A DNA stretch of 64,000 nt. Source: Spirochaetota bacterium (GTDB taxonomy: Bacteria; Spirochaetota; UBA12135; COTS27). Positions 1,860-16,025 of the stretch are shown piece after piece; within the stretch, counting starts at the first letter, position 1, and the number at the start of each line of letters is the position of its first letter. The position numbers were made by a program, and so were the translations under genes. The stretch covers positions 1,456,516 to 1,520,515 of the forward strand of contig AP019861.1 in the NCBI GenBank assembly GCA_013426755.1. The letters are read 5' to 3'. The notes beneath the pieces were generated by a model. The model saw nothing but the letters and a program-made list of their open reading frames with translations, was not told where the DNA came from and searched no databases.

Positions 1860-3416
1860 GTGGCTTGTGATGTGATTACTAAAAAAGCCGTATTTCGTTT
1901 TATCAAGCTTCGTACTGTAGCGGGTTATCTATGGGGAGGAATCAGCGCTGGTCTTAAAAATTCTGGGGCAAAAGACCTAGCACTGGTTATTTCAGAGCAC
2001 AATACAAGCACTGAGGGGATGTTCACTCAGCATGAATTACCTGGGGCGCCTATTATTATAGCCCAAGATCACTTAGCACGGCAATTCTCCCCCCACAGCG
2101 CCGTAACACGTGACAAAACCATTAAAGATAATTCGGTTATTAGAGGTACTTCATCTATTCGAGCATTGATTATCAATTCTGGCAATGCCAATGTATTTAA
2201 CGGCCGCCAAGGACTATTAGATGCGTATACAATGTGTCAAATAACAGCGGCAGAACTGGGTTTAGCAAAAGCAGAATGGGTTATTCCTGCTTCTACGGGG
2301 CTTATTGGGAAGCGATTACCTATGCATCGTATAGGCCGTGGCATTAAGCGACTGCGTAAGACGTTAGGCTCAAGCACAGAGCATATTAAGGATTTTGCAG
2401 AAGCCATCATGACAACTGATCGGCACCCGAAATACGTTTGCTTGGAGGTTAAAATAGGCACCAAGTCCGCTACAATGGTCGGTATTATTAAAGGAGCGGG
2501 CATGATCGAACCCAATATGGCGACAATGCTTTGTTATGTGATTTCAGATCTAGGCGCTTCTAGACAAGCACATAAAGCAGCATTTCGTTCGGCAATTGCT
2601 CAGACATTGAATACGTTATCGATTGATGGCGATATGTCCACAAGCGACATGGCAATATCCATGTTGAATCATAAAAGCGGGCTAATTGTCTCACAATCCG
2701 TGTTAAAAACAGCCTATCTTCGTGTGTTGGGAGCATTAGGTGAGCAGGTATTATTGGCTGGGGAGGGAAAGGTACGCCGTGTGTTATATTTTACTGTAGC
2801 AGGGGTTCATTCTAATAGAGTGGCGGATAAGATTGCTAAAAGCATGACGCGTTCTCTACTGGTGAAGACGGCTTTAGCTGGGGGCGATGCCAATTGGGGA
2901 CGAATTATCATGGCCATTGGAAAGAGCGGTAGCATAACTAAGAACGTTAAAAATCATAGAAAATTTGACACGACTTCTATTCCCACTCAAAAATCAGCTA
3001 AATCAATTAAAACAACTAAAATAGCGACCAACCAGGAAATAACGGCTTCATTGGAAGAGTGCCTTGTCATGAGTTTTTATGATAGATCAGATTATGAGAG
3101 ATTCTATGGAAAATACGGACATGATACGACATTCACTGCTAACGAACTTGCCACCCGTATTCAGAGTGATCTATCAAATGATAGATTAGAAGAGATGGGT
3201 ACTTCAAAGCATAGGTCTATTGAACGCTTACGTGCTGTGCATATCCGTGCAGACAAGCACCCTACCCTACGTGAAACTAAGCGATTGAAGCAACTTTTTG
3301 CCAGAAAACGTGTCTATCTTGTTATCAATCTCAACAATGGACAGCATCACAAATCTTTTGCTATGACAGACTTAAACGAAGCCTACGTGAAATTCAATAG
3401 TACCTATAGCACCTGA
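1860..3416 (+). CDS. argJ: Glutamate N-acetyltransferase / N-acetylornithine transferase ArgJ
   Basis: ArgJ moves the acetyl group from N-acetylornithine to glutamate (and in some species from acetyl-CoA) in arginine synthesis. Family marks are the NSGNANVFNGRQG segment, STGLIGKRLPM, the MTTDRHPK segment, KGAGMIEPNMATML with the self-cleavage Ala221-Thr222 and nucleophile Thr222, DGDMSTSDMA, and LVKTALAGGDANWGR near residue 345. The C-terminus ends as in the family (DLNEAYVKFNSTYST). The protein is 518 residues, against about 400 usually. The extra length is mainly a basic, low-complexity stretch after residue 355, with some at the N-terminus. The start is uncertain: the frame opens with GTG at 1860, no ribosome site is seen, and no ATG precedes the conserved region. 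No other arg gene is nearby. Family assignment is firm; activity with the insertion is inferred. Confidence 0.88.
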   Translation: MACDVITKKAVFRFIKLRTVAGYLWGGISAGLKNSGAKDLALVISEHNTSTEGMFTQHELPGAPIIIAQDHLARQFSPHSAVTRDKTIKDNSVIRGTSSIRALIINSGNANVFNGRQGLLDAYTMCQITAAELGLAKAEWVIPASTGLIGKRLPMHRIGRGIKRLRKTLGSSTEHIKDFAEAIMTTDRHPKYVCLEVKIGTKSATMVGIIKGAGMIEPNMATMLCYVISDLGASRQAHKAAFRSAIAQTLNTLSIDGDMSTSDMAISMLNHKSGLIVSQSVLKTAYLRVLGALGEQVLLAGEGKVRRVLYFTVAGVHSNRVADKIAKSMTRSLLVKTALAGGDANWGRIIMAIGKSGSITKNVKNHRKFDTTSIPTQKSAKSIKTTKIATNQEITASLEECLVMSFYDRSDYERFYGKYGHDTTFTANELATRIQSDLSNDRLEEMGTSKHRSIERLRAVHIRADKHPTLRETKRLKQLFARKRVYLVINLNNGQHHKSFAMTDLNEAYVKFNSTYST

Positions 3417-4246: not shown

Positions 4247-7200
4247 TTAAGAGGTGGTGGTTTCGTTGAGGTGGTGATGTTTTGGGTTGGAGATTGTCGT
4301 CTCCTCAGTAGCAAATGACGGGTCTGTCTTAAGAGAGAAGATCTTTGACATACCCTCTCGCATACTGATACCGTAAAGATAATCAAAGGCATGAAATGTT
4401 TTTCTATTGTGAGAAATGATGAGAATTTGTGTCTGCCGTTGAAAAGCTTTGAGTAATTTCAAAAACCGTGAAATATTTTCATCATCTAGCGCTGCGTCGG
4501 CCTCATCTAGAATACAAAATGGAGAAAACTTTGTTTTAAATATTGCAAACATTAATGCAAGTGCAATAAGTGTTTTTTCGCCTCCTGAGAAGAGGTCTAT
4601 GTTCTGAACATCTTTTCCCGGCGGTTGAACGGAAATAATGATTTGATTTTGGTCTGGATTGGGATGTGATTTGAAAGCAAGATTGCCTGTCCCTCCTTCG
4701 AAGAGTTCCTTGACGATATGTTTGAAATTTTTAGCAATTTGCTTAAACGTCTTGGCAAAGATTTTCTTAGATTGCCTATTGACTTGCTGGGCAAGGACCG
4801 ATAGGTTTTTAAGGGAATTTTTAATATCAAGACGTTCTTTAGCGATACGGCTATATTCTTCTGCGATTTCTTCAAGTTCTTCTTCAGCAAGCGGATTTAT
4901 GTTGTTATGACCGGAGAGACGGTCGCGGCAGATTTGAATGAGTTTTGCTAATTGTCTAGGCGTGAGTGTTTTAAGATTGATACTTAGATTGGTTTTTTTG
5001 AGAGCAGAAGAATCCTTAGGCATGGATTGTGATTGCTCTGTTGGAGCAGAGTGGGTGGGCGCTGCTGCGGGAGGAGAGATTGGGGGTTTTGGGTTGCGAT
5101 CACTGATTTGATCGAGGATTTCTTGTGTGATGAAAGAATTTTTAATGAGAGTTTTAGTAGCTTCGGGGCGGGTGCGATAATCTAGGAGATTTTCATCTAG
5201 ATAAGTCTCGGTATGTTCTAGCAGAGTTTTGTACTCGTTAGCAAAAATATTTGTTTGAGCGGATAATTCGTAGCGTTGTTTATTTAATTTTTGATATTTT
5301 TGTTCGAGCGTACCGATGTTTTTTTTAAGATTTTTGAGTTTCGTATGGCTTAATTTTTCATTTTTACGAGTAGCGATCCATTTGGCGGTAGTTGTTTTGG
5401 CTTGAACGTTAGTTTTAGTGATCGCTACGGCTATCGCTTTTTTTTGTTCGATGAGACCGGCAATTGACGTTTTAAGTGTGGAATTGATTTTTTGATAATG
5501 GTCGTAATCTGCTTGTTGTTCGGTTTGATAATGTTTGACACGAGCGAGGTCTGTTCTTAGTGGAGCAATAGTTTCATTGAGGGCGGCTATTTTTTTTTCA
5601 ATTTTTGCTTGGGTTACGGTGAGTGTTTCTTTAGAAGCACCTATTTTTTTCAGATCTTTTTGGGCTTGCTTTAATTTGGATTGAAATTTTTGTGCTGTCG
5701 TGATCTTAGTTTGCAGGGTACTGAGAATAACGTCTTTTTTTCGGTAGACGTTTTCAATGACTTTCACGATCCCCGTAACATTGGAGTCTCGATCGATGAG
5801 GCTAGTGCACTTAGCTTTGAGCGCATTGATTTTTTGCGTTGTGGTTGCTTTGAGGGTAGAAAAACTTGTTTTTAGGGCTGTTTTATAGGCAGCTGGGTCT
5901 AGACTGAGAAGATTGCGGAGGTGGTTTTCTAGTGTTGTATGGAGTTCTTGGCTTAGCGTTTCTAGTTGGGAGCGAAGTTTTTCTTGGGGGTCTTTTTGTT
6001 TTTTTTCTTGTGCGAGTAATTTGCTTAACGGGAACAGTTTTTCTAGGTCTTTAAAGAGGAGTTCTGGAATAGCATCGAGGGTTTTGCGTTCTGAATCGAT
6101 GAGAGCATTATTTTTAGCAATATCCCCTTCCAGGGTGGCTATTATTGTTTCTTGATTTTTGCGGTTGTTCTGGCAGACGACTAGCGCAGAACGGATGCCT
6201 TCTAGTTCTTTGCGTGTGTGAGCAAGGATTTTTTCATGGTGTAAAGCAGATTTCTCAGTGGTCGCTACAGTCTGCTTCGAGGCATGAAGATTTTTTTCAA
6301 TTTGTTTAATACGTTTGGTCTGAGTGGCGAGTTCTAAGGTGCGTTCGCTGTGGCGTTCTGAGAGAAATTTTTGTTTTTCGTGTAGAACACTGAGTTCATT
6401 TTTAAATTTAAATGTTTCATTCTGCAGAATATCGCTAGCTTTTGCGGCGGACTGGTCTAACTGTTCTGAGCGTGTGGTCTGTTGTTTGATGAGAGTTGAG
6501 AGGGCTTGCAGTTTTTGATTGATTTGTTGAGTCTCGTTGTGATTAGTATTTTGTTTTTTCTCGATAGCTTTGAGCGTCTGGAGGTTCTGGAATAATTCTA
6601 AGTGTTTAAGAAGTTTTTTGATTTTAAAGTACCCTTGGCTGGCTTGGGTTTGTTTTTGCAGGGCATTTTTTCGTTTGGTGATGTTACTGTAAAGAATCTC
6701 TATATGTTTAAGATTTTCTGTCACTTTAAGGATTTTGCGTTCATATTCGCGGTGACGTTCGCGGTACTTAGAAATCGAAGCGGCTTCTTCGATGAGACGC
6801 ATGCGCTGAGTATTGCTACTTTCTAAGATTTTACTGACACTGCCCTGTGCCATGATAGAGTAATCCAGTCGTCCGAGTCCTGTATCGAGGAGGAGGTAAT
6901 GAACATCTTTAAGGCGACATTGTTCATTATTGATAAGGTATTCCATTTCACCTGAGCGATATAATCTGCGTGCAATAGAAACTTCCTGCTGGGGGAGTGA
7001 GAAAACCTTAGCACTGTTATCGAAGACAATCTCCACTTCAGCATAGTGATGTGATGTTGTCGTAGCTGAACCATTAAAGATCAAATCGTTCATTTTATCG
7101 CCACGCACTTCGGATACTTTCTGGGCGCCAAGCACCCATTTCACTGCGTCAACTACATTGCTTTTGCCACATCCATTGGGACCGATAAGAGCACCGATTC

Positions 7201-7273
7201 CAGGAAAGAACTCAATCGTTGTTCTTTCAGCAAATCCTTTAAAATTTTGAACTATAAGCTTTTTTAGAAACAA
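4247..7273 (-). CDS. smc: SMC-type chromosome segregation ATPase, apparently without a normal hinge
   Basis: This is the SMC ATPase of the bacterial condensin, which organises and segregates the chromosome. The N-terminal head has Walker A GPNGCGKSN and the family segment RSGEMEYLINN. The C-terminal head has the ABC signature LFSGGEKTLIALALMFA and Walker B ILDEADAALDD. Between them lie long Lys/Gln-rich coiled coils and a Pro/Ala-rich break (SPPAAAPTHSAP). The product is about 1008 residues, against about 1180 usually. Around the middle, where the globular hinge should be, I see only a short remnant-like segment (DSNVTGIVKVIENVYRKK). I take TTG at 7273 as the start because GGAGGG lies just upstream and homologues begin MFLKKL; an ATG at 7321 would add 16 residues. 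No scpA or scpB is nearby. Confidence 0.88.
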   Translation of the reverse strand: MFLKKLIVQNFKGFAERTTIEFFPGIGALIGPNGCGKSNVVDAVKWVLGAQKVSEVRGDKMNDLIFNGSATTTSHHYAEVEIVFDNSAKVFSLPQQEVSIARRLYRSGEMEYLINNEQCRLKDVHYLLLDTGLGRLDYSIMAQGSVSKILESSNTQRMRLIEEAASISKYRERHREYERKILKVTENLKHIEILYSNITKRKNALQKQTQASQGYFKIKKLLKHLELFQNLQTLKAIEKKQNTNHNETQQINQKLQALSTLIKQQTTRSEQLDQSAAKASDILQNETFKFKNELSVLHEKQKFLSERHSERTLELATQTKRIKQIEKNLHASKQTVATTEKSALHHEKILAHTRKELEGIRSALVVCQNNRKNQETIIATLEGDIAKNNALIDSERKTLDAIPELLFKDLEKLFPLSKLLAQEKKQKDPQEKLRSQLETLSQELHTTLENHLRNLLSLDPAAYKTALKTSFSTLKATTTQKINALKAKCTSLIDRDSNVTGIVKVIENVYRKKDVILSTLQTKITTAQKFQSKLKQAQKDLKKIGASKETLTVTQAKIEKKIAALNETIAPLRTDLARVKHYQTEQQADYDHYQKINSTLKTSIAGLIEQKKAIAVAITKTNVQAKTTTAKWIATRKNEKLSHTKLKNLKKNIGTLEQKYQKLNKQRYELSAQTNIFANEYKTLLEHTETYLDENLLDYRTRPEATKTLIKNSFITQEILDQISDRNPKPPISPPAAAPTHSAPTEQSQSMPKDSSALKKTNLSINLKTLTPRQLAKLIQICRDRLSGHNNINPLAEEELEEIAEEYSRIAKERLDIKNSLKNLSVLAQQVNRQSKKIFAKTFKQIAKNFKHIVKELFEGGTGNLAFKSHPNPDQNQIIISVQPPGKDVQNIDLFSGGEKTLIALALMFAIFKTKFSPFCILDEADAALDDENISRFLKLLKAFQRQTQILIISHNRKTFHAFDYLYGISMREGMSKIFSLKTDPSFATEETTISNPKHHHLNETTTS

Positions 7274-7299: not shown

Positions 7300-7321
7300 G
7301 ACGTCTATTTCCCAACTGCAC

Positions 7322-15040: not shown

Positions 15041-15902
15041 CCCACTCGTTCCTTAGCCTCCTTACAAAATCTTCAGATTGAAGTTCACCAGTCGCATTCG
15101 GTGCTATCCCAAATAAATTATCCCAATCAGGAAGATCAGTTTCTGAAGGATAAATATCTATTTCCTTAGCTTTTATTAAACATGGAAAATTTTGATTCTT
15201 TGAGTATATTGCCTCTCCAGTCACACAAACTTTCCTACCAATTCCTTTTATTACTAAATTCCGCAACTCTTTTGGAAAAACACACCTTATTTTTTCTGGT
15301 AAGCTATATGGATAAATATAAAAATAATTTATATCATCATGTAAATTGATCTGTTCTAACTCGCCTTCATAAGAAGTAATACAGCCTTCATAAGAAGTAA
15401 TACAGCTATCACTTCCTTTTAATAGTTTATCAATATTTTTTACAAAATTTTCATCAATATTCACCTCCTTATTATCAGGAAACTTAATCACAGCATTATA
15501 TCTATCATCTTTTCCTTTGCTAAGATGACTTAATTTTTTATAACTCTCAAGAATATCATATTCTAAATCAATTTTACTTTCCTTCTTACTACTTATTGAC
15601 ATTAAATTATTTTTCGTGTCCTCAATCAACAACTTTGATCTTTCATCATCTATCCATAAAACATTTAACAATATATTAAAAGGACTACGCTTATTAGCAT
15701 GAACAATTTTAAATACAGGGTCGTTAGAAAAATTTTTTTCAGTAGTTTTCTTAGGAAAGTTGGAATAAATTTTTTTGGCAGTTTTTTTAAATACTTTTTG
15801 TAAAGAAGACAAATACTGGATACAAACATTTAAATCGATATTGTCATCTTTATTATTATTCTTGGGAAAGATGCTACTTTCAATAATATTTTTACTTTTC
15901 AT
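15018..15902 (-). CDS. Long partner of the PIN toxin, probable antitoxin
   Basis: I do not recognise a named family. The 294-residue protein is Lys/Asn-rich at the N-terminus and ends with SETDLPDWDNLFGIAPNATG and then a charged helix (LQSEDFVRRLRNEWDE). I recall similar tails in proteins encoded upstream of PIN-domain genes; this would fit a toxin-binding C-terminus, but that is from memory. The gene overlaps the PIN gene by 23 bases and comes first in the operon, as antitoxins usually do. It is much longer than a normal VapB and has no obvious DNA-binding motif. A 7-residue segment (CITSYEG) is duplicated in tandem. Low GC and high Lys/Asn suggest acquired DNA. Confidence 0.6.
   Translation of the reverse strand: MKSKNIIESSIFPKNNNKDDNIDLNVCIQYLSSLQKVFKKTAKKIYSNFPKKTTEKNFSNDPVFKIVHANKRSPFNILLNVLWIDDERSKLLIEDTKNNLMSISSKKESKIDLEYDILESYKKLSHLSKGKDDRYNAVIKFPDNKEVNIDENFVKNIDKLLKGSDSCITSYEGCITSYEGELEQINLHDDINYFYIYPYSLPEKIRCVFPKELRNLVIKGIGRKVCVTGEAIYSKNQNFPCLIKAKEIDIYPSETDLPDWDNLFGIAPNATGELQSEDFVRRLRNEWDEKNSIF
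15364..15405. repeat. In-frame 21-bp tandem duplication
   Basis: CCTTCATAAGAAGTAATACA plus G occurs twice with no differences (15364-15384, 15385-15405). It encodes CITSYEG twice in the antitoxin-like protein. Identity of the two copies indicates a recent event. Confidence 0.9.
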
Positions 15903-16025
15903 AGGATAAACAGCCTTTATTTGTCTCTATCCTTTAAAGACTCACCAATACAACTAATTTTGAAAAATATAACTTTGATCTTATGTAACGAAAAAATACC
16001 TAAAAGTAAAAATTAAACGGTAGTA

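Follow-up and report, generated by a model that had tools for sequence, protein, structure and literature searches.

The SMC protein encoded in the 64,000-nucleotide stretch of spirochaete DNA analysed here (hereafter the window) has complete ATPase heads and no globular hinge, a result confirmed by profile searches and structure prediction. Hinge loss is a trait common to the phylum, seen in every spirochaete relative examined closely. We put at roughly 60% the probability that, early in the history of the phylum, the chromosomal Smc of the spirochaete Smc-ScpAB condensin exchanged its globular alpha/beta hinge for an all-helical apex, two such tips packing together and holding the arms without a hinge gate; the dimerisation in this reading is something we infer.

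Results

The smc gene occupies positions 4247..7273 on the reverse strand, where all parts of it described below also lie, and encodes 1008 amino acids, the assignment being based on the open frame, the family score and the head motifs. Its start is a TTG codon at 7273, with GGAGGG immediately 5', and 4247 marks the stop side; the longest frame begins further out, with a GTG at 7321. The protein passes the NCBIfam model SMC_prok_B (TIGR02168) with 580.5 bits against an equivalog cut-off of 567.35, and it has the layout of a bacterial SMC, with Walker A, signature and Walker B located in two half-heads, one at either end of a long coil. The N-terminal ATPase head (residues 1-166; 6776..7273), delimited by alignment to solved SMC heads and by the strands of the model, carries the Walker A sequence GPNGCGKS (residues 31-38; 7160..7183). 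The head-proximal helix (796-857) and the C-terminal ATPase head together span residues 796-986 (4316..4888), as judged by head alignment and model, and include the ABC signature FSGGE (residues 895-899; 4577..4591) and the Walker B sequence ILDEAD (residues 921-926; 4496..4513). These three motifs, read directly from the sequence, bear out the preliminary description, which had called the heads complete. An alignment to known structures of bacterial SMC heads (3zgx, E 8e-94) takes in both halves, and a structure search with the model matched SMC, Rad50 and MukB chains, covering heads and arms. Elsewhere in the window, the frame 1860-3416 resembles ArgJ, and its C-terminal tail seems longer than usual.

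The Pfam SMC_hinge profile gave no match to the window SMC, even at E≤10, and exceeded its cut-off nowhere in the 2.68-Mb genome to which the window belongs; the sole trace there (E 0.44) lies outside smc and is interrupted by stops. In profile-profile comparison with hhalign, a hinge profile built from four hinges recognised a haloarchaeal hinge, included as positive control, at 99.8%, and the spirochaete centres at only 0.4% (0.6% with the window-led alignment). A full-length, single-chain AlphaFold2 model (15 sequences, mean pLDDT 73.4) was free of beta-strands from residue 120 to residue 861, the heads (3-119 and 862-982) being the only parts with strands. The region that separates them comprised helices at residues 168-229, 252-413, 416-456, 460-508, 527-724, 772-787 and 796-857; residues 509-526 and 725-771 were loops. 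The preliminary description had proposed that the globular hinge is missing and that the centre is coiled coil apart from one short segment: Pfam, hhalign with its control and the model uphold the former, and the model is helix-only in the centre, with low confidence at the apex (pLDDT <50 at residues 413-433 and 489-530). It had named as contrary outcome a hinge that is intact and merely diverged within the 150 central residues; the model, hhalign and Pfam were used to look for one, and none was found.

With 1008 residues, compared with 1183-1186 in three hinge-bearing bacterial SMCs, the protein is indeed short by the approximately 170 residues first estimated, as far as total length is concerned. 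Short length alone is no proof of hinge loss, because a mycoplasma SMC of 979 residues still has its hinge (Pfam E 1.2e-27). The better measure of size is the inter-head span, which is 690 residues in the window SMC vs 874-887 in three full-length Firmicutes SMCs, with a phylum median of 620 (45 SMCs measured).

The hinge-profile search was applied in identical form to 247 genomes of the phylum and 14 control genomes. The profile matched in 12 of the 14 controls and exceeded its cut-off in 10; the two silent genomes were those of E. coli and Sulfolobus, neither of which is known to have a canonical SMC. Among the phylum genomes, matches at E≤1 occurred in 45/247, and only one (G115) contained a protein over cut-off, identified as the Wadjet component JetC (L032:1-3255, reverse strand; PADLOC E 3.8e-161). 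This plasmid-defence condensin has a real hinge match, and the chromosomal SMC of the same spirochaete has none. SMC-family matches were found in all 60 relatives, over cut-off in 53; in G002, G015 and G053 the best match reached only E 1e-7 to 1e-9. Per 100 amino acids, the spirochaete SMCs had a median of 5 glycine plus proline residues and a maximum of 12, which overlaps the 9-20 counted in a set of ten SMCs with a hinge. The absence of the hinge belongs to the phylum and is no peculiarity of this organism.

Most families of phylum SMCs present a conserved island at the tip, F....F...G.h..K......I, and the centre pattern of the aligned proteins is exemplified by ILFDKTGIHAEKENLD. Conservation was counted over 48 non-redundant sequences of the 61 aligned SMCs, with L024 numbering. 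The 25 most conserved inter-head columns formed three groups, two by the heads (209-227 and 677-734) and one at the tip (487-508), where the lysine was kept in 42/48 sequences, the glycine in 37/48 and the phenylalanine in 36/48. Tip hydrophobicity was above that of the arms in 47/48 SMCs (0.34 vs 0.27), a count taken over related and hence not independent sequences. Both landmarks were located in 48 relatives, counted with duplicates; in 43 of these the motif lay 284-288 residues from the head landmark, two records of a single gene gave 313, and the other three gave 361. The longer SMCs L007, L014 and L029 (at least 1015 aa as read) keep the tip motif at 361 residues from the head landmark vs approximately 286, a step of 75. 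A recognisable tip motif was found neither in the Borrelia proteins L141-L146 nor in L067, L075, L076 and L080. Both L075 (1096 aa) and L076 (1105 aa) have a different central segment in which the typical tip motif is missing, and L076 is the only one of 61 phylum SMCs to contain CXXC.

The conserved tip surface would also suit a docking site for another protein, supplying dimerisation or DNA binding in trans. We consider this improbable, as no other protein of the window's genome has a hinge over cut-off and the search for a candidate partner found none.

When the corresponding part of L103, a named relative, was modelled from 14 sequences, the prediction reached a pLDDT of 90.3 and contained helices only (2-158, 162-170, 174-195 and 201-289), with no strand. 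Structure searches with the tip model returned coiled coils and helical hairpins only, the best being an Smc coil (5xg2, E 2e-4), and the VIA rows were generically helical. A narrow tip alignment, used after a broader one had been dropped as too variable, found 14 loci in named genomes. One of these is titled 'uncultured bacterium' and the other 13 carry the names Spirochaetes, Spirochaetota, Spirochaetia or Brevinema, by which the phylum is fixed. At E≤0.001 a tip profile built from relatives matched in 139 of the 247 phylum genomes, some of these being weak coil matches, and it found no match in the window's genome, nor in G001-G004. The window SMC used alone as query against genome contigs matched 37 stretches, with no relative among them. 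An origin of the tip through a single deletion of the hinge and approximately 95 C-arm residues, by which the old hinge boundary GF..GVK.IL would have become the tip, is not claimed here: the hhalign overlap was 0.4%, and full-length profile alignment was ambiguous in the arms, posteriors being mostly <0.4 between the head-proximal parts.

In the window SMC, residues 414-526 (5696..6034) form a helical apex in the position of the hinge, consisting of the two helices 416-456 and 460-508 and the loop 509-526; the model is of low confidence here, and the same order of helix, turn, helix and break recurs in the confident model of L103. The central segment singled out in the preliminary description, GIVKVIENVYRKK, corresponds to residues 501-513. 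It overlaps a degenerate tip motif, VIENVYRKKD (residues 505-514; 5732..5761), which full-length alignments place on the phylum motif ...G-I-H-x-x-K-E, so that NVYRKKD (508-514) sits on GIHxxKE and the near-invariant lysine is retained; an alignment of the fragment by itself gives another register. Since the tip profile misses the window's genome, the assignment of the same tip to it is based on position and helix order, and we regard the window apex, with moderate confidence, as a version of the phylum's helical tip that has diverged further than any other.

A hinge that is present but so extremely diverged as to fall below all sequence methods is, on these data, very improbable. The Pfam profile does miss some diverged hinges, 2 of the 12 matching controls having scored under its cut-off, and the window apex is modelled at low confidence, but the apex of L103 is confidently all-helical, the hhalign values stand far from that of the control, the inter-head span is too short, and the glycine and proline content is low despite the overlap noted above.

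The apex is carried by an N-terminal coiled-coil arm (residues 168-413; 6035..6772), modelled as helices 168-229 and 252-413, and a C-terminal arm (residues 527-724; 5102..5695), also taken from the model, with an arm length of approximately 240 residues as estimated from model and head landmarks. The second arm is interrupted by a Pro/Ala-rich linker (residues 725-771; 4961..5101) predicted to be disordered (pLDDT 27-48 in its blocks). The break reported there in the preliminary description is real; it is missing from L062, the sole aligned same-family relative. The linker lies approximately 85 residues ahead of the head landmark LFEGG and is lineage-specific. By alignment, the distance from motif to head landmark is 344 residues in the window SMC, a surplus of approximately 60 in the C-arm, compared with 279-283 in 10 of 11 relatives with ordinary-length arms, 273 in L062, and 392 and 401 in the two long proteins L075 and L076, respectively. 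The alignment places the surplus in part at residues 576-617 (42) and in part at 725-744 (20), so the linker explains only a portion of it.

The partners of Smc are retained. ScpA (E 2.6e-20), ScpB (E 1.5e-40) and ParB are encoded in the window's genome and in each of the 44 relatives at least 90% complete; over all 60 relatives, the counts are 53, 52 and 57, respectively. Two parS-like sites, 55 bases apart and each two mismatches off the consensus, are located at 15848-15918 of the first contig of the window's genome (G000:C1), approximately 20 kb from parB, and the total of such sites is four vs one for a reversed control pattern. Given these partners, the system is otherwise an ordinary Smc-ScpAB, and together with the parS-like sites they make loading and kleisin bridging look ordinary.

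Borrelia genomes were recognised by plasmid contigs whose sequence identity linked them to records of B. turicatae and B. turcica. The Borrelia SMC has 818 residues, no hinge match and no recognisable tip motif. Within the Borrelia family (f36), 6/10 genomes have an SMC frame of 821-835 aa, and the other four (G133, G179, G243 and G241, B. turcica being among them) have weak coil matches only and no headed SMC. As far as the accessible text of the 2023 Hi-C study extends, the B. burgdorferi Smc gives rise to long-range contacts and not to alignment of the chromosome arms, a lack ascribed tentatively to the missing ScpB (PMC10406323). It could also be that the unaligned arms reflect reduced rather than equivalent SMC function. 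Since most spirochaetes searched have ScpB, they offer a cleaner test of hinge loss than Borrelia.

These contacts bear on an arrangement in which the apex does not dimerise at all, the SMCs meeting only via ATP-bound heads and kleisin in an open clamp or bridge and not in a two-contact ring. The missing hinge (Pfam, model), the retention of ScpA and ScpB, and long-range contacts with unaligned arms in Borrelia (PMC10406323, accessible part) would all fit such a clamp. We nevertheless hold it to be unlikely: a conserved, more hydrophobic tip island at a nearly fixed distance from the head suggests that the apex has a job, and the reason given in the available text of the Borrelia paper for the lack of alignment is the missing ScpB.

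Discussion

The favoured reading, a helical apex in the hinge's stead, would work as follows. The N-arm helix would climb to the apex, turn, and return as one or two shorter helices; after the conserved break (F....F...G.h..K in most families), the chain would continue as the C-arm. Two helical tips may then pack as a helical bundle which holds the arms together, closing the ring without a hinge gate, and DNA would enter via the head/kleisin end. With the heads, the kleisin ScpA, the kite ScpB and the loader ParB retained, both the ATPase cycle and the loading step most likely follow the ordinary Smc-ScpAB scheme. A precedent comes from B. subtilis, where, according to the accessible part of the report, an Smc whose hinge was swapped for the unrelated Rad50 zinc hook supports growth, its authors holding the fold of the dimerisation domain irrelevant to chromosome segregation (PMC5344682). 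A different apical dimeriser can therefore work. The wider claim, that spirochaetes harbour phylum-wide natural hinge-free condensins in which the tip dimerises or need not, DNA passes no hinge gate, and loading and loop extrusion proceed, is tentative, and we would give it slightly less than even odds.

Compared with known systems, the window SMC shares with bacterial Smc (Smc-ScpAB, TIGR02168) the heads, motifs, equivalog score and genomic ScpA, ScpB and ParB, and differs in its missing hinge and shorter inter-head span. As in Rad50/SbcC, a coiled-coil apex replaces the hinge, but no CXXC zinc hook occurs in the centre of the window SMC, and its heads score as SMC. MukB and JetC are likewise long-armed SMC-like ATPases, yet the Pfam matches of the window SMC at E≤10 include neither a MukB nor a DUF3584 family. 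The engineered Smc(Zh) of B. subtilis resembles it in that another apical element replaces the hinge fold, the spirochaete tip being natural and phylum-wide; the estimated arm length is also near the 238-residue mode given in the accessible part of that report (PMC5344682). A further similar case is an SMC of oceanic Actinomycetes, reported in 2025 as new biology, with heads and coiled coil and without hinge or CXXC (PMC12153180). The likeness is by description, and that protein belongs to another phylum and is known from environmental sequences only; the accessible text contains no word starting with 'spiroch'. In the open-access literature searched, no report of hinge loss in spirochaete SMCs was found.

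Significance

Textbook accounts of SMC complexes count the hinge among their defining parts, as the site of dimerisation and of DNA binding. In recent work it is reported to be a gate as well (PMC9467508, PMC12647877). Spirochaetes, which have dropped the hinge and kept the heads, the kleisin, the kite and the loader, thus provide every hinge model with a natural knock-out experiment. In the Borrelia study, the word hinge does not occur and Smc is described as "canonical" (PMC10406323), and this label is an assumption which the absence of the hinge corrects. If the wider claim of natural hinge-free condensins is true, it could partly explain the unaligned chromosome arms of B. burgdorferi. The hinge may be inessential for this ancient SMC machine.
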